This document shows, piece after piece, positions 20,696 through 47,464 of a stretch of 64,000 bases of DNA. This stretch comes from Kineothrix sp. MB12-C1 (GTDB lineage: Bacteria; Bacillota; Clostridia; Lachnospirales; Lachnospiraceae): NCBI RefSeq assembly GCF_030863805.1, contig NZ_CP132957.1, forward strand, positions 620,001 through 684,000, given 5' to 3'. The first letter of the stretch is position 1; each line of letters starts with the position of its first letter. The translations under genes and the position numbers were made by a program. The notes beneath the pieces are model-generated. The model ran no database searches and was not told the DNA's origin. It was given only the letters and a program-made list of their open reading frames with translations.

Positions 20696-22003
20696 TTACC
20701 AATCTCCATAATCATCATAGGAGTCATAGCTATAATCATCATAAGAATCGTAACTGTAATCATCGTAGGAATAATCATAGTCATCATAATAATCGCCCGG
20801 ATCGCTGTAGTAATCATAATCATCGTAATAATCGCCCGGATCGCTGTAAGGATCATAATCATCGTAATAATCGCCGGGATCACTGTAGGGGTCATAATCG
20901 TCGTAATAATCACCGGGGTCGCTGTAAGGATCATAATCATAATAATTATCATAATAATAATCATAATAATCACCTGGATCGCTGTAAGGATCATAGTCAT
21001 AATAATAATCGTAATAATCACCGGGGTCACTATACGGATCATAATCATAATAGTAATCATAACCATTATAATAAGATTCTGCATACCAATCGCTGTACTC
21101 ATCATAGAAGCCCCAATATCCGCTATCATCCCAGTCCCAGCTCCACCATGCTCCATCTAGATAGTAATCCCAGTCAGGCTCATAGAACATCGAAGGATAC
21201 ACGCTATAATCAAAATCAGAATACCAACCATAATAGTAATAAGGAGGGTATATCCACTCAGTAACCGGTTGATACGTTTTCTTAGTTGCTTTTGCAGGTT
21301 TTGCCTCCGGATATTTCGTCTGATAAGTTGCTTCTTTGGTAGATACATCAACCGTTACCGGTTTCAGGACATTCATTGATGAAAAAACATTCAGAATAAG
21401 TTCGGCATCTTCATCTGTACATCCTGCCTCAAAACCCACGCTTACCATATATAAAGAAGAATTGATAATAGAAGTTGCAAAGATTCCATATCCCCCGGTT
21501 TCAGCCCCTTGCACTTCACCCGTCTCCTGTGTCGCCGCAGTATCTATGACTTCAGCGGACGCTTCTTCCTCCGGCGCAAAAAATGTACAATGGTTCGCAC
21601 GTGCACCAAACAGAATACCTTCCTTGACTTCCCCTGGATACACTCCACTCGCTATCAAAACTTGAGGAATAAGCTCTGCCGCCATACCCAGGTTCTGAAT
21701 GCCGGGCATAAAGGAAACACTTACAGATGCCAAACCATCGGGCGTCGATATTACAATAGTATCCCCGGTATCCTCAATAACGCAGGAATCATTTACGAGC
21801 ATTTCCATCATTAAACTTTGACTTTGATAAAGTTCACTTACCTGTGTAGAAGAAATGTCAGCCCCAGTCTTCTCTGACATCGATTCTTCTATTACCACTG
21901 CCTCCATATCTGTTGTTTCTGACTTACTTTCACCGCATCCTGAAAAAAGTAAAAATATTCCCAGTACCGAAATTAGTAGCGCCGTTACTCTTTTATTTTT
22001 CAC
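20696..22003 (-). CDS. Uncharacterised lipoprotein with Asp/Tyr-rich tandem-repeat C-terminus
   Basis: A 435-residue protein I do not recognise. Residues 1-23 are a lipoprotein signal (lipobox FSGC, Cys23). Residues of about 45-230 form a compact-looking domain with VIVISTPDGLASVSVSFMP and a LILNVFSSMNVL ending. From about 260 the chain is almost only Asp, Tyr, Trp, Ser, Gly and Pro: six copies of SDPGDYYD spaced 13, 16 or 20 residues apart, then two SYDSYDDY units. The repeat region is very acidic and aromatic, which suits ligand, metal or polysaccharide contact or cell-wall spanning, but no function can be claimed. Ribosome site GAGGAGGAGAG. It stands alone, next to a MalT-like regulator. 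Confidence 0.8.
   Translation of the reverse strand: MKNKRVTALLISVLGIFLLFSGCGESKSETTDMEAVVIEESMSEKTGADISSTQVSELYQSQSLMMEMLVNDSCVIEDTGDTIVISTPDGLASVSVSFMPGIQNLGMAAELIPQVLIASGVYPGEVKEGILFGARANHCTFFAPEEEASAEVIDTAATQETGEVQGAETGGYGIFATSIINSSLYMVSVGFEAGCTDEDAELILNVFSSMNVLKPVTVDVSTKEATYQTKYPEAKPAKATKKTYQPVTEWIYPPYYYYGWYSDFDYSVYPSMFYEPDWDYYLDGAWWSWDWDDSGYWGFYDEYSDWYAESYYNGYDYYYDYDPYSDPGDYYDYYYDYDPYSDPGDYYDYYYDNYYDYDPYSDPGDYYDDYDPYSDPGDYYDDYDPYSDPGDYYDDYDYYSDPGDYYDDYDYSYDDYSYDSYDDYSYDSYDDYGDW
20785..21045 (-). repeat. Coding tandem repeat (39-, 48- and 60-bp units)
   Basis: Six repeats encoding SDPGDYYD plus a variable Asp/Tyr spacer begin at about 20788, 20827, 20866, 20905, 20965 and 21013. The three proximal units are 39 bp; the others are longer by multiples of three, keeping the frame. 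Third-position differences between units show they have drifted rather than just duplicated. Confidence 0.8.
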
Positions 22004-22126: not shown

Positions 22127-24619
22127 TTAAAATTCTAAACGGGATAGTTCGGCTTTGGAATGCACTTCTAATTTACTATATATTTTCTTAAGCGCACTTC
22201 TTACAGTGGATTCCGTAATGAAAAGCGCTTCTGCTATTTCTCCGGCACTTAGACGCTCTTTAGCGAGCAAGGCAATATCCCTCTCCCTCGGTGTCAAGGG
22301 TGATCTTGACAAAAGCAGCTTTTTTCTAATCACTCGCATTCCATTTTCCTGACGATTTGCAAGTTTTACAATTTGTTCCAGTCCTTCCTTATCAGTGACA
22401 ATCGCCTTAACTAACTCTAAAAGAGGACGAAGTTCCTTTCCATGTTCGGCAAAAGGTAAATACACTTTATCGGGCAAAGCGATAGAAAGTGCTTTGCTAA
22501 GATTCTCCTGCGCTTTATTCGTTTGTCCCTGTGCATAATTTGCTATTGCCAGATAAATTAAATGATAGATTTGCGGCAGTAAATAGTTCATTTGAGATGC
22601 CATTCCCATCATAGGCTCCGTAAGACCATATAATTCGTTGTATCTTTTCTCCAACAAAAGTAACTTGCCATAAAGCATATTTCCTTGAGGAAGGGCGAGC
22701 ACATAAAGAACTTTCTTCATCTTCTCCAAATCATACATCCAATCCGGCAATGTTTTTGTATCACCTAACGTAAGGGTAAGCTGAGCCAGACAAAGTTCAG
22801 CCATACGAAAGAGAAAACGTTCGGATCTGTTAATGGTATGCTTCCTTATATTTTCTACTGCTGCCTGATAAGCTTCTATATCGCCGCGAAGCATAAAAAT
22901 ACGGCATAACATAAATTCCGAGCAAAGACAAAGAGCTCTTTGCCTCTGTTCTCTTCCCAAGTAAACAGCCTTATGATAAAGGGCCTCAGCCTCCATATCA
23001 TTCCCCCTAAACAGCATAGTCTCTGCACGCATCACAACATCCGCACTCGTGCCATGCCCTCTTGCCAGTTTCGAATAATATGGCATACATTCATCCATGT
23101 AACCAAGCTCTTTTTCCAGTTCTCCCTGTTTACTCCAATACATTGACAAGACCGATATATTCATAAAGGTCCATGGGGTCGTCGGAAGCAGAAACTTACT
23201 GGAGCCGTCTAAATATTTCATCGCTTCCTTATGCCCTTCACTCATTTTTTGAATGTCATTGTATTCATTGAAGGATGTAAGCAAAGCGAACTCTCCTTTG
23301 ATCCGGTATAACTCTTTTTCACTAATGTCTGACGGATTTTCAATCATAGAGACAATGAGTCTTGCTAATTTAGCAAATGGTCCTCGCAATCCTCCCATAA
23401 ATAAATGGAAAGCGAAACCAATTACAGATAACGGATATTTGCGCAAGGTATCTTCCGGACATATCTGTACTAAATCTGCTATGAATTCCAGAATATCTTT
23501 TTCTTTTTGATTATTGATATACTCCGCGTCCAATGGGAGGGATAAGATAGCATCAAAATCCGAAATTTTATAATAGAACTGAGCCGCCGGATAATACTGC
23601 CCCATCATGACACATGCTTCTCCTGCCCTCTTTAGCATTCGCTTCTGAAATTCCCCTGATGTCTGATTATAGAAACGATTTCTTAAATAATCTTGCAAAA
23701 TACTATGCATGTAGTATAAATCTGTTTCAGGAAAATAGCGTATGAAGCTGTTGCTTTCAAGCAACTGTATAATATACTCCGGTATCGATTCCTTTTCGAT
23801 CATAATTTTTATTTGTTTCAACGTAAAACAATCCAAAATGGAGATCGATAGAAAAAACGCCCGTTCTTCTTCTGAAAGCTTATTCCAAACAGCCATCTTT
23901 ATGAGTTGTTCGATATCTTTTGTATGTTCGAAAATTCCTCTTTCCTGATAATTCATCATTTGCAGGCGAATGGCGGCAACCCAGCCTTCCGTACTACTAT
24001 GTATGCTTTCCAGTTCACGTTCGGAAAGAGCAAGGCCTGATATACGAAAATAGTTTCCTATGCTCTCTCTGTCAAACATAAGATCCGCATCATTTATTTC
24101 ATAGATGTTTCCATAATGAACGGTAGCTTCTTGTAAGATATGCAGTGGCTGTGTAATAAAAATAATATGAAGCATATCATTTCCATGGACGGAGAACGCA
24201 TTAATGATCTGTCGTTGAATCTCACTGGCAAATAACTGGTAATTATCAATAATGAAAAAGGTTTTCTCGTTGCAGTGTAACTTTCTTAGAAGAAGGATTA
24301 AATCTGCCAGTGTATCAGGGGTTGGAAGCTCCAGCTCCTTCAGCTCTTTCGCAACTTCACCATCTATTTGTGCAAACAAATTACAAATACCATCCCATGC
24401 CTTTATCGGTGACTCGCCCATACAAGTATACCAAAACATCTGTGATAAATTATCTGTGTATTTTTTCAGTTGTTCTCTTACGACTGTCGTTTTTCCAAAG
24501 CCTGATGGTGCTTCTATAAGAGTCAATGGATGTTTATGTATTTCGCTTATCCGCCCCTTAAGCCGTTTCGGAAAATAATATAAATCATTAATATCTTTTT
24601 TCCCTTTTTGCACCTGCAA
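22127..24619 (-). CDS. MalT-like LuxR family ATP-dependent transcriptional regulator
   Basis: An 830-residue STAND-type regulator. The N-terminal NTPase has a P-loop LIEAPSGFGKTTV (about 36-48) and a Walker B-like FFIIDNYQLF; the middle is a long helical TPR-like region; the last 65 residues are a LuxR helix-turn-helix (LTPRERDIALLAKERLSAGE..., ITESTVRSALKKIYSKL). Proteins of this design bind ATP and an inducer, oligomerise and activate promoters. The start is a TTG with GGGAGGG five bases upstream; no ATG is available in this frame. It may control the Asp/Tyr-rich lipoprotein just downstream (inference). A decayed copy of repeat family A lies upstream. Confidence 0.88.
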   Translation of the reverse strand: MQVQKGKKDINDLYYFPKRLKGRISEIHKHPLTLIEAPSGFGKTTVVREQLKKYTDNLSQMFWYTCMGESPIKAWDGICNLFAQIDGEVAKELKELELPTPDTLADLILLLRKLHCNEKTFFIIDNYQLFASEIQRQIINAFSVHGNDMLHIIFITQPLHILQEATVHYGNIYEINDADLMFDRESIGNYFRISGLALSERELESIHSSTEGWVAAIRLQMMNYQERGIFEHTKDIEQLIKMAVWNKLSEEERAFFLSISILDCFTLKQIKIMIEKESIPEYIIQLLESNSFIRYFPETDLYYMHSILQDYLRNRFYNQTSGEFQKRMLKRAGEACVMMGQYYPAAQFYYKISDFDAILSLPLDAEYINNQKEKDILEFIADLVQICPEDTLRKYPLSVIGFAFHLFMGGLRGPFAKLARLIVSMIENPSDISEKELYRIKGEFALLTSFNEYNDIQKMSEGHKEAMKYLDGSSKFLLPTTPWTFMNISVLSMYWSKQGELEKELGYMDECMPYYSKLARGHGTSADVVMRAETMLFRGNDMEAEALYHKAVYLGREQRQRALCLCSEFMLCRIFMLRGDIEAYQAAVENIRKHTINRSERFLFRMAELCLAQLTLTLGDTKTLPDWMYDLEKMKKVLYVLALPQGNMLYGKLLLLEKRYNELYGLTEPMMGMASQMNYLLPQIYHLIYLAIANYAQGQTNKAQENLSKALSIALPDKVYLPFAEHGKELRPLLELVKAIVTDKEGLEQIVKLANRQENGMRVIRKKLLLSRSPLTPRERDIALLAKERLSAGEIAEALFITESTVRSALKKIYSKLEVHSKAELSRLEF

Positions 24620-24742: not shown

Positions 24743-25450
24743 TTAATCATTTCGATCCGGCTGTTCCTTTACGATCACAATCGTTAGATATCCACTGCTT
24801 TCATCCAGATTTTCCATCCCTTCCGCTATTCTTTCCTCTTCCATTCCACAATTGGAAACAGCATACACTTGCAGGCTATCTTTTTGGGATTCCTTCAACA
24901 TTTTCTTTAATTCTGCCAGCCTTTTCCCGGACTTCATATAGACCTTAGTTCCCTCTAGCGAAAGTGTCTTCCTAATATCATAAGAGGCAGGTATTATATG
25001 AATCTCTTCTTTATTATCTCCAAGAGAAATACCGAGTGACGCGGCAGCAGCACAGAAAGAAGGGACTCCGCTCACCATATGAGCAGCACCCCCTCTTTCC
25101 TTCACTTTGGAATGGATGTAGCTATAAGTAGAATAAACAGCAGGGTCACCAATTGTCAAAAATGCCACTGTCTTCCCCTGCTCCAATAAGGCTGCAATAT
25201 CTTCATATATTCGATTATGGGAAGTTTCAAGTACCTTCTTATCTTTTGTCATAGCAAAAGGCATACATATGACTTCTTTTTCGTTAATTTCAGGATATGC
25301 TCCCTGCGCAATCAGATAGGAGTGACACTTATCCTTCGGAGCGGACGGCAGAATAATAACATCGCTTTGTCTCATATATTTCAATGCTTTTAATGTAATC
25401 AACTCCGGATCCCCCGGTCCTACTCCGATTCCATATAAAATACCTTTCAT
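24743..25450 (-). CDS. cbiL: Cobalt-precorrin-2 C20-methyltransferase
   Basis: A 235-residue SAM-dependent tetrapyrrole methylase. The CbiL pattern opens GILYGIGVGPGDPELITLKALKYM; the SAM-binding GDPAVYSTYSY and SGVPSFCAAAASLG blocks follow. It adds the C20 methyl to cobalt-precorrin-2. It is the last gene of the cobalamin cluster and overlaps the ATPase gene by 4 bp (ATGA). Length fits the family. Confidence 0.93.
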   Translation of the reverse strand: MKGILYGIGVGPGDPELITLKALKYMRQSDVIILPSAPKDKCHSYLIAQGAYPEINEKEVICMPFAMTKDKKVLETSHNRIYEDIAALLEQGKTVAFLTIGDPAVYSTYSYIHSKVKERGGAAHMVSGVPSFCAAAASLGISLGDNKEEIHIIPASYDIRKTLSLEGTKVYMKSGKRLAELKKMLKESQKDSLQVYAVSNCGMEEERIAEGMENLDESSGYLTIVIVKEQPDRND

Positions 25451-26220
25451 TTTCTCTGGCTCCTCTCAAAATAAAAATGCTTTTCCCCTTGTTCATCTAC
25501 GAGCATTCCCGACTCTATACCAAATACCCGGTCAATCATACCGCTTTCATATACGTGCAAAGGAGTATCCGCGCATCCTATACTTCCTGCTTCCATCACT
25601 ACCATATAATCAGCAATCTTCATCGCATAATTAAGGTCATGAAGAACCGTAATTACCGTCTTTCCCTCTTCTTTCAGCCGTACCATGGTATCCAAAAGCT
25701 CCAATTGGCAACTTATATCCAAATATGTGGAAGGTTCATCGAAAAGAAAGACTTCCATCTCCCCGGCCAGAGCCATGGCAATAAACACCTTCTGCCGCTG
25801 TCCGCCGGATAACTCATCAATTTTCTTATCACGAAGCGCAAGAATGCCCATTTGTTCCATGGCCTGAAAACAGCATTTGTAATCTTTTTCGCGATATCTT
25901 CGAGGATAGGACAGATAAGGAAACCGCCCGTGTAAGACCATGCGTTCCACCGTAATAGCTCCACCGCCATGGCTTTGAGGCAAATAGGAAACATATCCTG
26001 CAAATTCTTTATCGCTAAACTCACCTTTCTTCTTATTATTCAGAAGTACAGTGCCCTTATGTATTTCGCATAGTCCTACGATCGCCTTAAGAAGTGTACT
26101 TTTTCCGCTTCCGTTGGGCCCGGTCAGAACTGTAATTTTCCCTCGCTCAAAGGTGAGATCAATCTCTTTTATCACCGGATTCTTCTGATATCCTGCCGTC
26201 ACTTGTTCTAATCTAAGCAT
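25447..26220 (-). CDS. ABC transporter ATP-binding protein (FecE/BtuD type)
   Basis: A 257-residue ATPase with Walker A LTGPNGSGKSTLL, Q-loop YVSYLPQ, signature ELSGGQRQKVFIAMAL and Walker B VFLFDEPSTYLD, H-loop LHDLN. The pattern is that of iron-siderophore, heme or B12 importers. The frame extends upstream, but the ATG at 26220 has AAGGGGG seven bases before it and overlaps the permease by 8 bp. Placed among corrin genes, it probably imports a corrinoid, cobinamide or a related metal chelate with the FecCD permease and the binding domain fused to CbiK. Confidence 0.92.
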   Translation of the reverse strand: MLRLEQVTAGYQKNPVIKEIDLTFERGKITVLTGPNGSGKSTLLKAIVGLCEIHKGTVLLNNKKKGEFSDKEFAGYVSYLPQSHGGGAITVERMVLHGRFPYLSYPRRYREKDYKCCFQAMEQMGILALRDKKIDELSGGQRQKVFIAMALAGEMEVFLFDEPSTYLDISCQLELLDTMVRLKEEGKTVITVLHDLNYAMKIADYMVVMEAGSIGCADTPLHVYESGMIDRVFGIESGMLVDEQGEKHFYFERSQRK

Positions 26221-27220
26221 TTCTTTTCCCCCTTTTCTTTCTGACGAGCAGCCACAAGAAGAAGGGGGCACCGATAAATGACAGCACAATGCCTGTAGGA
26301 AGCTCATAGGGGGCGAACATCGTTCTTCCTATCGTATCGCAGACTAATAAGAACAAAGAACCTAAAATTGCCGAGGTAAGAATGTAGTACTTACTCTCTT
26401 CTCCAACGAGCAGCCTGACTATATGGGGAACAATTAAGCCCACGAATCCAAGCAGTCCGGCAAAACTTACAGAAGCTCCTGCGAGCACAGCCGCCAGGGC
26501 CAGGAAGAAAAAGCGATAAAAAGGAACAGAGAGCCCTAATGTCTTCGCTTTATCCTCTCCAAGAGAAAATACCTCCAGCTCATTATGAAATAAAAAAACA
26601 ATAACTGTCGCTGCTGCCACCGCAATACTTGCGAAAGTAAGTACCCGGCTATCGATTCCTGCTAATCCTCCAATTTTAAAAGCGGAACTCGCAATGAGAG
26701 AACTTTCACTAAAAGTATAGACCGTATCGGAAGCTGCATTTAACAGACTGTTGATCGCAACTCCGGCCAATACGAGAGTGATTTTGGAAGCACCGGTTTT
26801 CTTACCGAGATAATAAACGAGTAAGACAGTAAAAAAGGCGCCAAGAAAAGCTGCGAACGGTAAAACAGCATACGATCTCGGTAATAAAACACTGCAAATC
26901 GCTACTGAGAAACCTGCACCTGCATTGACCCCGATAATATTCGGGCCTGCCAGCGGATTATTCAAAATCACCTGTATCACAGCCCCCGCAACGGCAAGTC
27001 CCATTCCCGCAACGACTGCTCCGATTACCCTCGGCATACGAACATAGAGAAGAATCCTTCCATTCTTCGTCATCTCCTCCGAAGCAAACAATTCCATAAA
27101 GTCTCTCGGTGAAAGCTTAGCTGCACCGCTTAGCAACCCTACAGCAATCATAAGTAACAATAAACAGGCAAATAATATAATTCTTCTTTGTACTTTTAAC
27201 TGTTCTCTACTCTTCTCCAT
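26213..27220 (-). CDS. FecCD/BtuC family ABC transporter permease
   Basis: A 335-residue permease with about ten membrane segments and the FecCD marks RMPRVIGAVVAGMGLAVAGAVIQVILNNPLAGPNIIGVNAGAGF and GFVGLIVPHIVRLLVG. It overlaps the CbiK-fusion gene by 14 bp and the ATPase by 8 bp, so the three are tightly coupled. Likely substrate: corrinoid or another metal-tetrapyrrole or chelate, by position in the cobalamin cluster. Confidence 0.93.
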   Translation of the reverse strand: MEKSREQLKVQRRIILFACLLLLMIAVGLLSGAAKLSPRDFMELFASEEMTKNGRILLYVRMPRVIGAVVAGMGLAVAGAVIQVILNNPLAGPNIIGVNAGAGFSVAICSVLLPRSYAVLPFAAFLGAFFTVLLVYYLGKKTGASKITLVLAGVAINSLLNAASDTVYTFSESSLIASSAFKIGGLAGIDSRVLTFASIAVAAATVIVFLFHNELEVFSLGEDKAKTLGLSVPFYRFFFLALAAVLAGASVSFAGLLGFVGLIVPHIVRLLVGEESKYYILTSAILGSLFLLVCDTIGRTMFAPYELPTGIVLSFIGAPFFLWLLVRKKRGKRNA

Positions 27221-28964
27221 ACAAGTAACCCGCTAATATCCGGTAGCTCTCTCCCCAACGTTCATTCGGTTTATTATGAAACAGTTCCTTGGGCAGCACA
27301 TAATAATGTCCCCCTTGGACTGCCTTTAATCCATTCCATGCAGGATTTGTCGTAAGAAGTTCTTCCACCATATTCATAGCAGCCTCTTCCGATTCTCCCA
27401 TCGTCGTGACAAAAATATAATCGGGATCCGCATGGATAATGGCTTCCATACTCAAATCTTCCAATAACCCATCCTCATGATCCGCGATATTGATGCAATC
27501 CAATTTCTCAAACATTTGTCCCGTCATGCTATCGCTTCCCTTCGCCTTTACTCCTGTAGAATAAGCCCTGAGAAACAAGACCGAAGGCCGGCTTCCATCC
27601 GCTCTTTCCATTTGATATTCTATTTCCAGACGGATCATTTCTACATTCTTCTCATATAAGTCCTTCCTGCCTGTAATATCCGTCATAACTTTCATCATAT
27701 CGGCATAATCATTGAAGCTTTCTACCTCAAAGTATGCTGTCGTTATTCCTGCCGCCTCCAACGTATCACAAAGTCTTACATGTTCTTCAATTGCAGAGGA
27801 TAAAATGAGGAAATCAACACCTTCTTCTATCATCGTTTCTATACTCGGACTCTTTAAGCTTCCGAGCATTTTGGTTTCCTCCATTAATGTAACCGTTTCC
27901 TTTGCATCTTCCGTAGTTGCGAAAAGCTTGCCGCCGGCTAACAGCCATGCATCCGCATAGCTTCCCGATAATACTGCCACCCTCTCCGGCAATTCTACTG
28001 TGACCTCTCTGTCGCGGGAATCTGTAAAGTGCACTTGTCTTTCAACAAACTCAGTCTGCTCCTCCGCAATCGCTTCCGTATTCACTTGTAATACTTTCTC
28101 TGTTTGTACTTGTTCTGCTTTCCCAAGACCGCATCCGCTAAGCAGGAAGATACAAAGGGACAATGTGAGCAAACGACTGGCTCCCTGTAAATATTTAAGA
28201 TAGATCTCCCGAATCCCCTTGTACTCTCCCAGCCCTTTCAGCAAGCATTTTACATTATAACCCTCTGCCCTTAGCTTCGTTAAAAAGGACACTTCTTCTC
28301 CGGACATATCATTCACTGCATGATCCCCTGCTACAAGCATAAGCGGTGCAATCAGAACTGATATTTCCATTCTTTTACTCTTTTCCTGGACGGAAGCATT
28401 CATCTTCTTGATTACATCTTCTATCGATGTGGCCCCCTCCACTGTTGCAATATAGATTTCTCTTCCTGCATATTCCCGAAGGGCTTCTTCAAATTTCTTA
28501 TAAGCGATGTCCGCTTCATGATAAGAACCATGTCCCATCAGAACCACGACCCCCTCCGGAGCATCCTCCTTTATCTCATCCCAAAATGCCTTTGCTGTCA
28601 GAGAATAATCCTCTTCCCTTTCCAATAGCGCACAGGCAACCTTTATTTCATCGAAAAAGGCTTCCGATTTCTTAGCCATCTGTTTCATCTTGTTGTTTTC
28701 CACCCCATCGATAATATGAGTGGGTAATACCGTTAAATGAGTGATTCCTTTTATTTTCATTTCTTCCAAGGCTTCTTCGATTCCCGGAATCTCAATACCG
28801 TCCCTTTTCTTAAGAATCGCTCTTACCATTTTACTGGAATAAGCCTGGCATACTTCACAGTCCGGGTTTTGATCCCGGACTGCTTCCGCAATTTTCTCAA
28901 TATTTTTTTCGCGTGTTTCATGATATGTCGTTCCAAAGCTGACAATTAAAATTCCCTTTTTCAT
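27207..28964 (-). CDS. cbiK: Sirohydrochlorin cobaltochelatase CbiK fused to an ABC substrate-binding lipoprotein domain
   Basis: A single 585-residue frame with two known parts. Residues 1-262 are a full-length CbiK, which inserts cobalt into sirohydrochlorin in the cytoplasm; likely metal ligands are His145 (GHGSYH), Glu176 (TVEGA) and His215 (AGDHA), plus His83. Residues 265-278 are a hydrophobic stretch ending in a lipobox, LSGC (Cys278), and 279-585 are a FecB/BtuF-type binding domain (VHFTDSRDREVTVELPERV, DYIFVTTMGESE). No stop separates them. A TTG at 28172 (codon 265) has GGGAG eight bases upstream and could start the lipoprotein alone. The ATG at 28964 overlaps cbiN as ATGA. FecCD permease and ATPase follow. 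Confidence 0.88.
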   Translation of the reverse strand: MKKGILIVSFGTTYHETREKNIEKIAEAVRDQNPDCEVCQAYSSKMVRAILKKRDGIEIPGIEEALEEMKIKGITHLTVLPTHIIDGVENNKMKQMAKKSEAFFDEIKVACALLEREEDYSLTAKAFWDEIKEDAPEGVVVLMGHGSYHEADIAYKKFEEALREYAGREIYIATVEGATSIEDVIKKMNASVQEKSKRMEISVLIAPLMLVAGDHAVNDMSGEEVSFLTKLRAEGYNVKCLLKGLGEYKGIREIYLKYLQGASRLLTLSLCIFLLSGCGLGKAEQVQTEKVLQVNTEAIAEEQTEFVERQVHFTDSRDREVTVELPERVAVLSGSYADAWLLAGGKLFATTEDAKETVTLMEETKMLGSLKSPSIETMIEEGVDFLILSSAIEEHVRLCDTLEAAGITTAYFEVESFNDYADMMKVMTDITGRKDLYEKNVEMIRLEIEYQMERADGSRPSVLFLRAYSTGVKAKGSDSMTGQMFEKLDCINIADHEDGLLEDLSMEAIIHADPDYIFVTTMGESEEAAMNMVEELLTTNPAWNGLKAVQGGHYYVLPKELFHNKPNERWGESYRILAGYLYGEE

Positions 28965-29278
28965 GCATTTTCTCCGTTGTCTGTCCATTTTTTGCGTTCT
29001 ACGAAGCGACCCATGCAATAAGCCATAATACCTACACCAATGCCTGTTTGCAGACAGAAGAACAAGCTTTCCACCTCACCGGGAAGCTCTCCGTCTATCA
29101 TTGTTTCTAACACAGGTGCGAACCAGGGTTCATAGCTTCCGGTAATTTCCTCCACCATAACGCTCCCGGCATCATCCGATCCCCCGAACTCCGCTCCTTT
29201 TAATGCGAAAAGCGGAACAAGAGCCATAAGCACTACTATAACAATTAATACAATAACCAAATGTTTTGTTTTCTTCAT
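28961..29278 (-). CDS. cbiN: Energy-coupling factor cobalt transporter subunit CbiN
   Basis: A 105-residue small membrane protein with TM segments at both ends: LVIVLIVIVVLMALVPLFAL near the start and FCLQTGIGVGIMAYCMG near the C-terminus, with the CbiN loop EFGGSDDAG and YEPWFAPVLE between. CbiN is the auxiliary subunit that loads Co2+ into CbiM. An in-frame ATG at 29290 has its AAAGG directly abutting; the ATG at 29278 has that site 11 bases away and matches family starts (MKKTKH), so I prefer it. Confidence 0.92.
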   Translation of the reverse strand: MKKTKHLVIVLIVIVVLMALVPLFALKGAEFGGSDDAGSVMVEEITGSYEPWFAPVLETMIDGELPGEVESLFFCLQTGIGVGIMAYCMGRFVERKKWTDNGENA

Positions 29279-29323
29279 ATGAATAACCATCCTTTCTCGT
29301 AATCTGCAAACTTTATTTTCACA

Positions 29324-30073
29324 CTATTTTGCTTTCTTCATGAATCCAATCTTCTTCAGTTCGGGTTTCGCGTAGGTCTCTAACGCAATGATAACTAAAA
29401 GGGTCAAAATACCTTCCATAATTGCAAGCGGAAGCTGGGTCGGTGCGAAAACGCTCAAGAACTTAACGATAGAGGCTCCTACACCACCTTCTACGGAAGG
29501 ATATGCCATCGCAAGCTGTATGCTCGTCACACAATATGTAAAAATATCACCGATAAATGCCGCTAAAAATACAGATACCCATTTATTTACCTTAAGCTTT
29601 TTACAAAGCAGATAGATACCATAACTTAAGAACGGGCCGGCGATTGCCATGGAGAAGGTATTGGCTCCCAATGTGGTAAGCCCGCCGTGTGCTAAAAGGA
29701 GTGCCTGGAACAGCAGCACAATAATACCGAGAATGCCTACTGCCGTAGGTCCGAATAAAATCGCACCCAAGCCTGTTCCCGTCATATGAGAGCAACTTCC
29801 TGTCACCGACGGAATCTTCAGGGATGAAATCACAAAAATGAAGGCTCCTGCCATAGCCAGTAAAGTTATATTTCTTCTGTCTGCCTTAAGCTTCTTTTGA
29901 ATGGATAAGAATCCGGCAACAAGGAACGGAATGCATAAGATTCCCCACGCAATGCTATATGATGGCGGTAAATAGCCCTCCATAATGTGCATAGCATTTG
30001 AATGGAACGTAACGCTCATAAGTGCGGATACGATGGTCAAAGCTGCAATTACTTTTCTTTGTTTTGTTGTCAT
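29324..30073 (-). CDS. cbiM: Energy-coupling factor cobalt transporter substrate-binding subunit CbiM
   Basis: A 249-residue polytopic protein. A signal-like N-terminus ends [13 protein letters not shown]; the free N-terminus MHIMEG after cleavage, with its His, is the known metal ligand of CbiM. The [27 protein letters not shown] block is the family signature. It takes up Co2+ for CbiK. GAGGAG lies before the ATG. Order here is cbiQ-cbiO-cbiM-cbiN, different from the enterobacterial cbiMNQO. Confidence 0.95.
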
Positions 30074-30115: not shown

Positions 30116-30940
30116 TTATAGAAGTGACTCTATTTCAGCAAGTGTTCGCGGATACCTACTCCCCCCTTCCTGTAATAATCCCTTTTTTTTCAATATGCCA
30201 TATACTTGCATTATCATAGGTTTCTTTAAATTTGCTTTTTCGAGCACTTCTTCTATTTGAAAGACTTCCTCCGGTTTCCCGTCGGCAATCACCTTTCCTT
30301 TCCAAAAGACCAAAATTCGGTCCGCAAAGCGATAAGCGAAATCCACATCATGAGTGGACAGCATTACCGTCTTACCTTCCCCTTCCAAGTCTCCCAACAC
30401 CTTTTCCAGTGCCTCCGCATTGACCGGATCGAGGGACGCTGTGGGTTCATCGAATATAACAAGGGGATAATTCATGGCAAGGATATCTGCTATACTCACC
30501 CTTTTCTTTTCCCCTTCGCTTAAATAATGGGGTGGACGTTCCACATATTCCTCAAGATCCATCCTCTTTATCGCTCCCACTGTCCACTTTTCTACTTCTT
30601 TTCTCGGAAGTTTTTTATTCAGCGGACCAAAGGCTACCTCTGCCTTTACCGTAGAGCCAATGATTTGACTGTCCGCATCTTGGAAAACGATGCCCACATT
30701 TCTTGTCAGTTCCTTTCTATTCTTCTTTCCTATTTTTTCTCCATAAAGAAACAGTTCTCCCGCATCCGGCTTTCGTACCCCGTTAAGGTTTAAGAAAAAA
30801 GTGGATTTTCCCGCACCGTTAGCTCCCAGAACTGCTATTTTTTCCCTTTCATAAATAATTACCGATACTCCTTGAAGTGCAGGATTATCTTCTTCATAGG
30901 AAAAAGTCAACTCTTTTGCCTCTATTATTTTTCTACTCAT
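30116..30940 (-). CDS. cbiO: Energy-coupling factor cobalt transporter ATPase CbiO
   Basis: A 274-residue ATPase. Walker A VLGANGAGKSTFF, Q-loop GIVFQDADSQI, signature YLSEGEKKRVSIADILA and Walker B LVIFDEPTASLD, STHDVDFA switch. The QDAD-Q and SEGEKKR forms are typical of CbiO. Start is uncertain: ATG 30940 gives the canonical short N-terminus (AGAGG before it), but ATG 30967 overlaps the cbiQ stop as ATGA and would add nine residues. It energises CbiM/N/Q. Confidence 0.92.
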   Translation of the reverse strand: MSRKIIEAKELTFSYEEDNPALQGVSVIIYEREKIAVLGANGAGKSTFFLNLNGVRKPDAGELFLYGEKIGKKNRKELTRNVGIVFQDADSQIIGSTVKAEVAFGPLNKKLPRKEVEKWTVGAIKRMDLEEYVERPPHYLSEGEKKRVSIADILAMNYPLVIFDEPTASLDPVNAEALEKVLGDLEGEGKTVMLSTHDVDFAYRFADRILVFWKGKVIADGKPEEVFQIEEVLEKANLKKPMIMQVYGILKKKGLLQEGGSRYPRTLAEIESLL

Positions 30941-30963
30941 TGTCCTCTCGCTCATCCTCCTTT

Positions 30964-31758
30964 TCATCCGCAAATCACAAGCAAAGCCACTCCCACATAG
31001 GCGGCTCCCCAAAGTGCCTGAGTCACCGTGAACTTTCTTCTTTCCTCCCAAAACAGGCAGTTGCCCTCATAACCTCTGGATTCCAGAGCATCATAATATT
31101 CTCCGGACTTCTTCATCGAAAGAATGAGTAGATTCGCCATCTCACTGCCGAAGGTTCGAAGAGATGTCCTATAGTCACAGTAACCCAAACGCGACTTAGC
31201 AGCCTCATTCTGCCGTACATTGATTTCAAATAGCAGGAAAATATACCGGTAAATCAAATGCATCAACTCCAATAAAATAGAAGGAATACGAGCTCTGCGA
31301 AATACCGAAATTATTTCCCCCATCGGTGTAGATAGCGCAAGCATGTAAAGAGCACTCACTCCAGCAAAAGCCTTGCAGATCAGATGCCCCGTCTGCCATA
31401 TACTTTCTTTTGTCACATAGATATTTCCTATCGGAAGATGCAGCAAAAACAAGCTATCCGCCCCTTCTCCTATCTGTACGAGAACAGCAATTGCACCTGT
31501 TAGAATAAAAGCAGTGGGCACGAGCAGGAGCCTTAAATAATTACCAATTCCTATTTTCCCTATAACGATAGACAAGCTTCCCATATACAACACTGTTATC
31601 AAAGAAAGGAGTATAGAGTCCGCCGCAATTACTGTAAAAAGCGGAAAAATCGCAAATATTGCTTTATAGGCAGTATTCCACTCCCTTAATCCCGAACGAT
31701 AAGCATATTGATCGATGGACTTATTTCTTTTCTTATTTCCTTTCTTTTTCCTCTGCAT
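30964..31758 (-). CDS. cbiQ: Energy-coupling factor cobalt transporter transmembrane subunit CbiQ
   Basis: A 264-residue membrane protein with about five spans and the CbiQ/EcfT coupling motifs (ARIPSILLELMHLIYRYIFLL and AAKSRLGYCD, then SGEYYDALESRGYEG). A very basic N-terminus (MQRKKKGNKKRNK) precedes YAYRSGLREWN, the usual CbiQ opening. The ATG at 31758 is taken because the family starts there; it overlaps cbiA by 26 bp. It couples CbiO to CbiM. Confidence 0.92.
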   Translation of the reverse strand: MQRKKKGNKKRNKSIDQYAYRSGLREWNTAYKAIFAIFPLFTVIAADSILLSLITVLYMGSLSIVIGKIGIGNYLRLLLVPTAFILTGAIAVLVQIGEGADSLFLLHLPIGNIYVTKESIWQTGHLICKAFAGVSALYMLALSTPMGEIISVFRRARIPSILLELMHLIYRYIFLLFEINVRQNEAAKSRLGYCDYRTSLRTFGSEMANLLILSMKKSGEYYDALESRGYEGNCLFWEERRKFTVTQALWGAAYVGVALLVICG

Positions 31759-33136
31759 ATGCCCTTGCCCTCTCCATAAAATAGTCAGGATAATGAGGAT
31801 TCGAAGCATAATACAGATGCGGAAATCCCCACCAGTTCCTATCTGAAATATGGACGCAATCCCAATTTCTACACGATATGGGCTTGGTCGCTATGCAATC
31901 ATTACCATTATCCGTACTGTCATAATAGTGGAATTCATGCCCCTTTATCGTCTCATCTTCTTTCAGGAAGGTACTTTCCCTCTCATTTATTACGATATAA
32001 CCGAACCGTACCAGCTTTCCTGTATTGCGGCATGCCCCTTGGTGTGCTCCAACCATCGGATGCATTCTCTTATCCTCACCCTCCACCTGCTCATGCAAAT
32101 ACATAAATCCCCCGCATTCCGCAATTGATGGCATCCCCATCTTAAGCTTATATAAAATATCTGCTTTCATTTCCCCATTTTCACTCAGTTCTTTCGCGTA
32201 CAACTCCGGATAGCCCCCTCCCAGGATCAGCCCTCTAATTCCTTCCGGCAGCCTTTTATCTCTAAGGGGAGAAAAAGGAACGAGTCTGGCACCTGCTTCC
32301 TCCAACAAACGTAAATTATCCTCATAGTAAAAGCAAAAAGCTTCATCCATAGCGATTCCAATCGGCACTGCTTCTTCTGTATTACTGCTGTTCTCTCTTC
32401 CCCTATCTATCTTCTCTTTTCTCTTATCCTCTTTGTCCGAAAGAACGGCTGCCCCCTCTGCCAAATCCAGAAGCCTTTTTATATCCAATGTATCCTTTAA
32501 GACCGATGCTGCCTGTTCCATCCGACTCTGTAAATTCTCTACCTCTTCCGGTAGTTTTAGTCCTAAATGTCTGCTTTCCACTTGTAATTCTTGCTGAAAA
32601 GGAAGGTATCCCAATACAGCCACAGATAACTCTTTTTCTATTTCTTCCTTTATCGATTCGTAGAACATCTTCGTGACCTTATTTAGAATCACACCGACAA
32701 TGAGCTTTTCCGTGTCATATCGAAGGAAACCGGCAATTAGAGGAAGTAAAGACCTTCCCATCCCTCTTCCGTTGATAACCAAAACAATAGGAACTTCGAT
32801 CGCTTTTGCGAGGTGATAGGAAGAAGCCTCCTCTCTAATACCGCCCAGGCCATCGTAAAGTCCCATAACACCTTCGATCACCGATATCTCCTTGTCCTTC
32901 GCCGATTCCATGAACAAAGCTCTCGTTTTCTCCTCTTCGGTAAAAAACATATCCAGATTCTTGGAGGGAACCCCTATAATCTTCTTGTGAAACATCGGAT
33001 CGATGTAATCGGGGCCGCACTTAAAAGCGGCTACCTTCCTCCCCTCCTCCTTCATAAGTTGGAGAAGCGCACAAGTAAGAAATGTCTTCCCGCTTCCGCT
33101 TCCCGGGGCTGCTATCATAATTCTCGGTATATTCAT
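31733..33136 (-). CDS. cbiA: Cobyrinic acid a,c-diamide synthase
   Basis: A 467-residue enzyme that amidates the a and c carboxylates of cobyrinate using ATP and glutamine. The N-terminal dethiobiotin-synthetase-like ATPase has APGSGSGKT (10-18) and VIEGVMGLYDG; the C-terminal class I amidotransferase has LILGGGYPELYA and the nucleophile in IAECGGFMYL (Cys341). AGGAGG stands before the ATG; the longer frame upstream enters non-coding repeat DNA. It is the first gene after the repeat element at 33169-33442, so it may depend on read-through from the main operon. Confidence 0.94.
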   Translation of the reverse strand: MNIPRIMIAAPGSGSGKTFLTCALLQLMKEEGRKVAAFKCGPDYIDPMFHKKIIGVPSKNLDMFFTEEEKTRALFMESAKDKEISVIEGVMGLYDGLGGIREEASSYHLAKAIEVPIVLVINGRGMGRSLLPLIAGFLRYDTEKLIVGVILNKVTKMFYESIKEEIEKELSVAVLGYLPFQQELQVESRHLGLKLPEEVENLQSRMEQAASVLKDTLDIKRLLDLAEGAAVLSDKEDKRKEKIDRGRENSSNTEEAVPIGIAMDEAFCFYYEDNLRLLEEAGARLVPFSPLRDKRLPEGIRGLILGGGYPELYAKELSENGEMKADILYKLKMGMPSIAECGGFMYLHEQVEGEDKRMHPMVGAHQGACRNTGKLVRFGYIVINERESTFLKEDETIKGHEFHYYDSTDNGNDCIATKPISCRNWDCVHISDRNWWGFPHLYYASNPHYPDYFMERARAYAEEKERK

Positions 33137-33454: not shown

Positions 33455-35518
33455 TTATTGAAAGGGTCGGTGTCGTCCGTGTTCGTTTGCATCGAGGCGG
33501 AAGGTTATAATATAGATTGGGTTCTCCGCTTGCATCAGGTGATAGGGACCTGCTTTTTTTGCCCGGCTTACTTGGAGCTGGACCACTTCGTGGTCTTTGA
33601 TGTTATATTCCTTTATCAAGCTCGTAACTTCGCTTAAAGTTTCCAGCGTAATTGCATTGATTACGGCTTTAACGGAAGGGGCCTTTTCTTTTAGTGCAGT
33701 CAGAATTTCTCTCAGTTTGCCTCCGCTCCCTCCGATAAAAACGTGTGTGGGTGCCGGAAGTTCCTGAAATCCTTCCGGCGCTTGCGCTTCCACGACTGTC
33801 ACATTGGCAAGCCCAAAACGGTCGCAGTTTTCTCTGGTTAGTTCTGCTGCCTCCGACTCCCGTTCTATGGCGTATACTTGGATTCCTTCGGATAAACGGG
33901 CGCATTCTACTGCAATAGAGCCGGTTCCGCTTCCTATATCATATAAAACAGATTCCTTCGTTAACCCGAGTTTACAAATGGATACTTCCCGTATCTCTTC
34001 CTTCGTCATCGGCGTATTTCCTCTAAGGAAGGAAATATCCTTTACCCCATGTGTAAGAATCTTTTCTCCTGCTTTTTCATTCTCAATAAAGCAGCAACAT
34101 AACCCTTCTTTTTCCACCCCCTGGCATTCCTTAGGAGTAAGAACTTTTATTTCCTCATCAGAGTAGGAAAGCCTATATCCATATGTAATCTTAAGATGTG
34201 AAAGCTCATTTTCTACCAATAATTCTCCCAGATTCTTAATATCCGAAAGTCCGGATAGGAGCAAAAAGGATAACTTGTTATTTCTTACCGTTTCTAACAG
34301 ATTGGCTTTTCTGCCATGAATACTGACAATAGCGGCGTTCTGCCAGCCGATTCCTATTCGAGAAGCTAGATAGGAAAGAGAAGATATACCGGGAATGATT
34401 GTTACGCTGGCGTTCAATCTTTTCCCCTCTATTTCCTTCTGCAATTCTTCATAGAACTTTTGGGTACCGCTGTAGAATCCCGTATCACCGGAGAAAAGTA
34501 CCGCTGCCCTTTTCTCTTCTCCGCAACTTCTCTTGCTTTCCTCTAAAGCTTTTAAGTGGGGAATAATATCCGCTGCCAGATAAAAGGGATAGCCTTTCTT
34601 CTTATTCGGTAACCCTTCCAGCAGCCTCTTCGCTCCGAGAATCACATCCGCTTCTCTCAATGCTTTTCTCGCCTTACCGGTCAAAAGCTCTTCATTCCCC
34701 ACCCCCATTCCTATAAGAGACACCGCAATTGGTACCGATTCTGCCTTTCCCTTTACTAAAGGAAGGATTCTCTCCATCACTTCTTTAAAGGAAAATCCGG
34801 ACATTTCTTTTTCAGGACTTCCGATAATCATTACCTGAGTATTTGTATTCCTGGCCGCCTCTATCTTTTCCCTGAATCCTCCTACGGCTCCGCTTTCTTT
34901 CGCTACCATACAGGAAATATGGAGTTCCTGAATCATCGCTTCATTCATTTCCGTTGAGAAAGGGCCTTGCATGGCAATTATCTGCCTGCCGTAAATTCCC
35001 TGTTCTTCACAAAGGGAGATACTTTCTATACTGGGAAGCACACGTACATACAAACGTTTTTTCACTTCCTTATTATCAAAAACTTTAAGTTCCTTACTTC
35101 CGGTCGTCAGGAGGATATTCCCCTCCACTTTCTCCAGGGCCTTCGCACAAGATTTCATATCATCAAACCAAAGAAATCCCTCTTGTGTCCTCTCCTTTTC
35201 GTCAGTATTTCTTTTCAGACGTAAGTATAGAAGTCCCGTATCTGCAAGACTTTCCCTAATATTCTTCGATACTTCCGTAGCGAAAGGGTGAGTCGCATCC
35301 ACAACCGCAAGGAACTCTCCGCTTTGTATCAGCGCTCTCATCTGTGCTGCATCTAACCGCCCCCTATGTAAAGTAAGTAAGGTCTGTCTTTCTATCACTT
35401 GCTCCCCGTATCGGGTCGCTACGCTAAGTGTACAAGCAATTCCTTGGCGGCATAATTCCTCTGCCAGCTCCCTTCCCTCGGTGGTTCCTCCAAAGACCAG
35501 AACTTGACTTTGTTTCAT
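33455..35518 (-). CDS. Trifunctional CbiJ-CbiE-CbiT: precorrin-6A reductase / C5- and C15-methyltransferase
   Basis: A 687-residue fusion of three corrin enzymes. Residues 1-250 are CbiJ/CobK (QVLVFGGTTEGRELA, VDATHPFATEVS, SGAVGGFREKI), an NAD(P)H reductase of the ring. Residues about 265-470 are CbiE (VSLIGMGVGNEELLTGKARKAL, VLFSGDTGFYSGT), the C5-methyltransferase. Residues about 490-687 are CbiT (RGNTPMTKEEIREVSI, LYDIGSGTGSIAVECA), the C15-methyltransferase/decarboxylase. CbiE-CbiT fusions (CobL) are common; adding the reductase is less so. It overlaps cbiH by 4 bp. The extra C-terminal tail RLDANEHGRHRPFQ is unusual. Confidence 0.92.
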   Translation of the reverse strand: MKQSQVLVFGGTTEGRELAEELCRQGIACTLSVATRYGEQVIERQTLLTLHRGRLDAAQMRALIQSGEFLAVVDATHPFATEVSKNIRESLADTGLLYLRLKRNTDEKERTQEGFLWFDDMKSCAKALEKVEGNILLTTGSKELKVFDNKEVKKRLYVRVLPSIESISLCEEQGIYGRQIIAMQGPFSTEMNEAMIQELHISCMVAKESGAVGGFREKIEAARNTNTQVMIIGSPEKEMSGFSFKEVMERILPLVKGKAESVPIAVSLIGMGVGNEELLTGKARKALREADVILGAKRLLEGLPNKKKGYPFYLAADIIPHLKALEESKRSCGEEKRAAVLFSGDTGFYSGTQKFYEELQKEIEGKRLNASVTIIPGISSLSYLASRIGIGWQNAAIVSIHGRKANLLETVRNNKLSFLLLSGLSDIKNLGELLVENELSHLKITYGYRLSYSDEEIKVLTPKECQGVEKEGLCCCFIENEKAGEKILTHGVKDISFLRGNTPMTKEEIREVSICKLGLTKESVLYDIGSGTGSIAVECARLSEGIQVYAIERESEAAELTRENCDRFGLANVTVVEAQAPEGFQELPAPTHVFIGGSGGKLREILTALKEKAPSVKAVINAITLETLSEVTSLIKEYNIKDHEVVQLQVSRAKKAGPYHLMQAENPIYIITFRLDANEHGRHRPFQ

Positions 35519-47005: not shown

Positions 47006-47049
47006 CCCTTATCTATTCCAGACCAATTACTCGTGGCTGTACTATTCTT

Positions 47050-47218
47050 CATCTAAGGCAGGTCTCCTGACTAAAAGATTATCGCTAACGGCAGCCTTCC
47101 CAATGTTGCATCAGTGGCGTTTTGCCGTAACTCCCTTATCACAGTGACGAGTTCGTACAGGATTTGCACCTGTTTCCCTTTTCACCGAAATGAGTCTGCG
47201 CTCATTCCGGCACCTTAA
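47050..47218 (-). ncRNA. Cobalamin (adenosylcobalamin) riboswitch
   Basis: On the minus strand the classical order of conserved elements is visible: GGTGCC at the 5' end, GGGAAACAGGTGCAAATCC, CACTGTGA, GCCACTGATGC, TGGGAAGGC and the B12 box AGTCAGGAGACCTGCCT (complement of 47056-47072). This is a full aptamer. It binds a cobalamin and lowers expression of the synthesis and cobalt-uptake genes downstream, starting with cbiP. Confidence 0.95.
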
Positions 47219-47464
47219 ATGGATATAATTTGATTTATGAATCTTATGATACTATAGTTTATTTACTTTTACCAGCTTTTTTTGCCGGATACTAAGCCCG
47301 ATAAGAGGATACAAGCAAAACCTCAGAAGTTTTTTCTACGCCATACTCAAGTTTATTCTTTATTTAATTCACTCAAACCATGGAAAAAAATACTTAATAT
47401 TGCATAAACTTTATTATAATTTAAGGAGTATTTTATAAGTTATTTACGAACTGTAATTTTTGTA

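Follow-up and report, generated by a model that had tools for sequence, protein, structure and literature searches.

Can one chain supply both a cytoplasmic enzyme and an exported binding lipoprotein? The question is raised by the genome of Kineothrix sp. MB12-C1 (CP132957, 3,935,490 bp), which comes from black soldier fly larval faeces (PMC10793289). The window analyzed here, 64,000 nucleotides at positions 620001-684000 of its single 3,935,490-bp contig, had been annotated from its letters as containing a CbiK cobaltochelatase fused in one frame to a surface binding lipoprotein. We asked whether the fusion is real, how it may have arisen, and by what route its second half might reach the cell surface.

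A CbiK domain and a binding-protein domain share one frame

The open frame runs on the minus strand, from an ATG at 28964 to a stop at 27207-27209. This bears out the single frame that the first-pass annotation had placed at 27207..28964 with no strand given; translation of 27207-28964 on the plus strand meets many stops. The fusion is thus real in the assembly. Both proposed halves were recovered by profile searches: Pfam CbiK covers residues 3-262, where a complete CbiK had been claimed at residues 1-262 (PF06180, 226.9 bits against a cut-off of 26.2, covering profile positions 1-260 of 262), and Peripla_BP_2 covers residues 329-560, in agreement with the FecB/BtuF-type binding domain proposed to follow the lipobox (PF01497, 87.2 bits against 27.5, with FecCD permease and ATPase genes adjoining). 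By sequence, the nearest solved chains to the first half are CbiK-family structures (2xvx, 1qgo, and 9b86); the second half comes nearest to binding proteins of iron uptake, and its best NCBIfam match is IsdE (58.4 bits against a cut-off of 298.65).

Alignment with 1qgo gives H145 and H215 as the equivalents of the catalytic histidines, which the consulted part of an account of Salmonella CbiK names as His145 and His207 (PMC7689651). With the Pfam match and both histidines in place, the first half is a predicted class II cobaltochelatase. The fused ORF does not reach the NCBIfam CbiK equivalog NF047852 (176.4 bits against a cut-off of 400), but an ABC-CbiK relative (L072) also falls under it at 271.5, so this cut-off is narrow. 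The genome as a whole gave a single CbiK match, in the fused ORF, and three matches to Peripla_BP_2, and neither CbiX nor CobN was matched at E <= 0.001; the cell should therefore need the CbiK half. The idea of a dispensable CbiK half was set aside on this ground, within a search for other chelatases that covered CbiX and CobN. The halves are not parted by a stop, so CbiK would have to come from the fused chain.

The fused gene lies within a cobalamin gene cluster

Cobalamin genes run on the same strand for ~22 kb, from 46968 down to 24743, presumably as a single transcript; a cobalamin riboswitch lies upstream (Table 1). Genes for the cobalt importer (CbiM, CbiN, CbiQ, and CbiO-type) lie just upstream of the fused ORF, and those for the FecCD permease, its ATPase, and CbiL lie downstream. 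The earlier proposal that the fusion links cobalt insertion to uptake by FecCD was right about the neighborhood, FecCD and its ATPase being next door; however, the operon's cobalt importer is CbiMNQO, so the ligand of FecCD, and hence the link between insertion and uptake, is unproven.

Table 1. Positions of the features discussed, counted from the first letter of the window.
Feature	Position	Strand	Basis or remark
Cobalamin riboswitch upstream of cbi genes	47040..47232	-	RF00174, 2.7e-29
CbiQ	30964..31809	-	TIGR02454 over cut-off
CbiO-type cobalt ATPase	30116..31051	-	Best NCBIfam matches are cobalt/ECF ATPases, under curated cut-offs
CbiM	29324..30073	-	Pfam, NCBIfam
CbiN, overlapping cbiK start	28961..29290	-	Pfam
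Fused ORF (CbiK, internal lipoprotein signal, Peripla_BP_2), 585 aa	27207..28964	-	ORF/translation, Pfam
CbiK domain, residues 3-262	28179..28958	-	Pfam 3.5e-67, 1qgo alignment
Junction, Tyr255 codon to Cys278 codon, 72 nt	28131..28202	-	92 nt in K. alysoides and G009
Internal signal: R264, hydrophobic 265-277, lipobox LSGC (275-278); Cys278 codon 28131-28133	28131..28175	-	
TTG, possible internal start of binding lipoprotein, GGGAG 8 nt upstream	28170..28172	-	
Peripla_BP_2 (FecB/BtuF-type), residues 329-560	27285..27980	-	Pfam 1.5e-24; genome search, 647285-647980
FecCD/BtuC-type permease	26213..27220	-	Pfam 5e-84
FecE-like ABC ATPase	25447..26307	-	Pfam, NCBIfam
CbiL/CobI C20-methyltransferase	24743..25450	-	TIGR01467 over cut-off

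The cluster holds another fusion, a 687-aa ORF of CbiJ and a tetrapyrrole methylase (33455-35518, minus strand); on visual inspection its C-terminal third resembles CbiT. The first gene past the downstream end of the cbi genes, at 22127-24619 (minus strand), encodes a MalT-like TPR and LuxR-type regulator. A 435-aa lipoprotein-like ORF at 20696-22003 (minus strand) carries LLFSGCG near its N-terminus and ends in Tyr/Asp-rich YDPYSDPGDYY repeats with DNA periods of 39 and 48 bp; Pfam gave nothing for it at 1e-8.

The two genes are separate in relatives

The order cbiM-cbiN-cbiK-binding protein-fecCD-ATPase-cbiL found here recurs, with orthologous proteins, in four relatives in which cbiK and the binding-protein gene are two genes in different frames. 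In the sister species G009 (L031) and K. alysoides (G014; L080/L032) the stop of cbiK overlaps the start of the binding-protein gene (TAATG, ATGA), and in Amazonia massiliensis (L081) and Caproiciproducens faecalis (L083) the two genes lie a few bases apart. A further genome (G063) has the order cbiM-cbiN-cbiK-cbiL without transporter genes, so the presence of these genes between cbiK and cbiL is variable. These comparisons indicate that the fused gene is derived from an operon in which both genes were separate, as in the sister species.

We measured the junction as the stretch that begins with the Tyr codon in the last helix of CbiK and ends with the Cys codon of the lipobox. It is 20 nt shorter than in the sisters, and because 20 is 2 modulo 3 the shortfall joins the two frames. 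In the alignment the gap falls on the sisters' stop, start ATG, and n-region (MKVK), its exact placement being uncertain in so divergent a stretch. The fusion is best read as a lineage-specific event, in which a small deletion would have joined the overlapping genes. No RNA structure is indicated at the junction (fold z-score 0.50). A 10-of-12 site at 28283-28254, considered as a separate promoter of the second half, was rejected, as 13 such sites were found against 14.8 expected.

Compared with the Amazonia and Caproiciproducens outgroups, the CbiK half (58 and 62%) is conserved to the same degree as in the sisters (54-59%). The binding half, at 64 and 63%, stands 2-6 points under the sisters' 66-69%, and CbiQ and CbiO are likewise lower. 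There is no sign in the sequences that either half is decaying. The FecCD and ATPase genes are intact and evolve no faster than other operon genes. The remaining operon genes compared are full length relative to G009 and K. alysoides, so no general frameshift problem is evident. The binding half is probably still functional, and a functional binding half would require export.

The fusion was found in one genome

Protein searches covered 61 relatives and overlapping samples of 16 genus, 397 family, 392 order, 391 class, and 398 phylum genomes, with three first-look candidates scored per genome in the family, order, class, and phylum samples; the scan of named contigs covered the best 80 of 337 loci. 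The search for CbiK followed by Peripla_BP_2 that had been suggested with the annotation recovered only this genome's own ORF in the samples searched. There was no second uninterrupted fusion in the genus, order, class, and phylum samples or the best 80 of the 337 named loci, and none in the family sample among the matches listed. When loci were read by script, both domains fell in one frame at 1 of 159, which was this locus itself (L001). Candidates in G116, G585, and G680 were rejected because both halves matched only across stops: in G116 adjoining cbiK and binding-protein genes share a frame with stops between them, and in G585 and G680 a lipobox-bearing CbiK is immediately followed by a separate binding lipoprotein gene. 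A conserved fusion family was likewise dismissed, as neither the protein searches nor the named-contig scan gave a second member. Adjacency of CbiK and binding-protein genes recurs; their fusion was found in one genome.

An internal lipoprotein signal follows the CbiK domain

The stretch between the two domains reads R264-LLTLSLCIFLLSG-C278. Residues 265-278 are hydrophobic and include the lipobox LSGC, as the annotation had described, and Cys278 is the only match in the 585-aa chain to a lipobox pattern that we take to be like PS51257. Shuffling the residues 2000 times produced a lipobox behind an equally hydrophobic segment in 7 cases. Chance is thus no explanation for this combination, and an origin in a true lipoprotein gene accounts for it.

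The signal segment 265-277 (mean hydrophobicity 2.30) ranks second in the chain to a 13-mer inside CbiK (201-213, mean 2.42), and in comparison with 77 orthologous signals the internal signal scores 1.98 against their mean of 2.32. The surrounding charges, three K/R and one D/E before and two K/R and two D/E after, give a weak asymmetry; residues 251-264 hold three K/R, with R264 and K257 on the predicted inner side. The signal begins about two residues past the end of the CbiK domain, with almost no linker. An N-terminal signal peptide with a charged n-region is absent from the full ORF, whose signal is internal at 264-278, and the CbiK N-terminus has no signal of its own.

Routes by which the binding half might be exported

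The premise that the halves belong on opposite sides of the membrane holds insofar as the topological conflict is real; however, the CbiK family is not always cytoplasmic, six relatives having an N-terminal lipobox. We propose that cbiK and a binding lipoprotein gene with a stop-on-start overlap were merged by a net loss of 20 nt in the Kineothrix lineage, so that ribosomes translating CbiK would run on into the binding protein and give a 585-aa chain. CbiK would work as the cytoplasmic N-terminal part of this chain, and the stretch 265-277 would engage the Sec machinery with its N-terminus inside and its C-terminus outside. Signal peptidase II would then probably cut before Cys278; CbiK would keep a short stub in the membrane, and the binding protein, anchored by its lipid, would serve the FecCD-ATPase permease. 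Taken as a whole, this explanation (fusion by deletion, a full chain, an internal signal exporting the binding half, and possibly a cut at Cys278) seems to us evenly poised between right and wrong. Its fullest form, in which enzyme and lipoprotein arise from one chain by the Cys278 cut, both halves work, chelatase and receptor are made 1:1, and CbiK is briefly held at the transporter, is tentative and leans toward the doubtful.

The fusion could also be real and the binding lipoprotein be started separately, at TTG 28172 behind GGGAG, leaving the fused chain as CbiK with a useless tail. The TTG and the GGGAG eight bases upstream are present, as annotated, and the GGGAG aligns opposite the ribosome-binding region of the sisters; the Shine-Dalgarno pairing is -7.2 kcal/mol at this TTG, -6.6 at the cbiK ATG, and -7.6 at cbiN. 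As a mark of a start, however, the site is weak evidence: of 3000 sites drawn at random from the minus strand, 15% reach -7 kcal/mol or better, and within the fused ORF the value of -7.2 is surpassed at 11 other in-frame start codons. The product would begin MLTLSLCIFLLSGC, with no K or R. By comparison, 80 of 81 orthologous frames gave a lipobox signal and a script found K/R in 75 of these 80; four of the other five have an upstream Met with K/R, and the start of the fifth (L110) is ambiguous, just after KKK. With no stop between the halves, the fused chain would be expected even if the TTG were used. Separate initiation thus appears unlikely, and we modestly favor the internal signal of the fused chain as the export route.

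We give the same low weight to a real fusion that has ended export of the binding half; the deletion would be recent and tolerated because CbiK still works. The fusion is seen in a single isolate, its signal has lost the charged n-region and lies flush with a folded domain, and the genome has two other Peripla_BP_2 matches. The retained lipobox argues otherwise, as do the intact binding half, FecCD, and ATPase, none evolving faster, although a very recent event would look alike. Least probable of all, in our estimate very much so, is a sequencing or assembly error that masks a gene pair still out of frame. The published description reports nanopore R9.4.1 and DNBSEQ reads and Canu assembly, and leaves short-read correction undescribed (PMC10793289). 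Yet the longest homopolymer in the 72-nt junction is 3 or less, the neighboring genes are intact, and assembly completeness is 99.94; moreover, residues 226-293 in the binding-protein frame offer TTGs but no ATG or GTG, so the layout of the sisters is not concealed by one miscall.

If both halves work, the locus would provide a very young natural test of whether a lipoprotein signal that follows a folded enzyme of the cytoplasm can still act; close relatives, in which the genes remain unfused, would be the control. The binding protein extends the recurring set of CbiK partners (CbiO, CbiL, and CbiC), and the widened set supports a working link that joins the import and insertion of cobalt to the methylation that follows. 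Should CbiK alone work, the locus would be an ordinary small deletion that illustrates how genes with overlapping stop and start become fused.

Comparison with known systems

Long-frame CbiK loci from Lachnospirales were opened at 23 places, picked for length so that the counts give no rate: 14 encode CbiO-CbiK, three CbiK-CbiL, and one CbiK-CbiC, four have a lipobox signal before CbiK, and one is unassigned; CbiK joined to a binding protein was seen in 0 of the 23. A check on L072, L171, and L182 covered the labels CbiO and CbiL. CbiO-CbiK, which unites the cobalt importer ATPase with the cobalt chelatase, occurs in 14 Lachnospiraceae loci (L072-L075, L171-L180), a wider spread than that of the fusion in the window; the CbiK-CbiC fusion lies at L188:2816-4285. 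As in the fused ORF, the partner in CbiO-, CbiL-, and CbiC-fused CbiK comes from the same cobalamin/cobalt operon; unlike in the fused ORF, both partners are cytoplasmic.

Desulfovibrio, as described in 2004, has cbiK-cbiL and btuCDF under one B12 element, and so resembles this locus in that a single cobalamin riboswitch covers CbiK, CbiL, and a transporter of the FecBCD/BtuCDF type, with no fusion mentioned in the consulted part of that article (PMC545781). Among the relatives, CbiK-family proteins with their own lipobox signal occur near FecCD genes (L169, L170, L077, L078, L183, L184) and probably serve surface tetrapyrrole or metal handling; L078 also has a weak NEAT match, under its cut-off. 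At L169 and L170 the lipobox CbiK directly precedes a separate binding lipoprotein gene, so a CbiK fold is linked with a FecBCD-type transporter as here, but there CbiK itself bears an N-terminal signal, which the CbiK N-terminus of the fused ORF does not. The fused ORF matches P. gingivalis FetB (structure 9b86) at 1.5e-27; FetB/IhtB is presumably an exported CbiK-family protein, with its own N-terminal signal and a link to a FecBCD-type transporter.

Titles and abstract openings in the literature searched contained no CbiK-binding-protein fusion, which does not prove its absence from print. A precedent for one gene serving two compartments is the Bradyrhizobium FbcH cytochrome b/c1 polyprotein, which has an internal signal peptide at which signal peptidase splits the chain in two; it differs from the fused ORF in being of the signal peptidase I type and in its first half, which is integral to the membrane where CbiK is a soluble enzyme of the cytoplasm. 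Given the CbiO, CbiL, and CbiC fusions of relatives, CbiK fusion is a kind already known, and what is new within the searches made is the binding-protein partner together with the internal signal.
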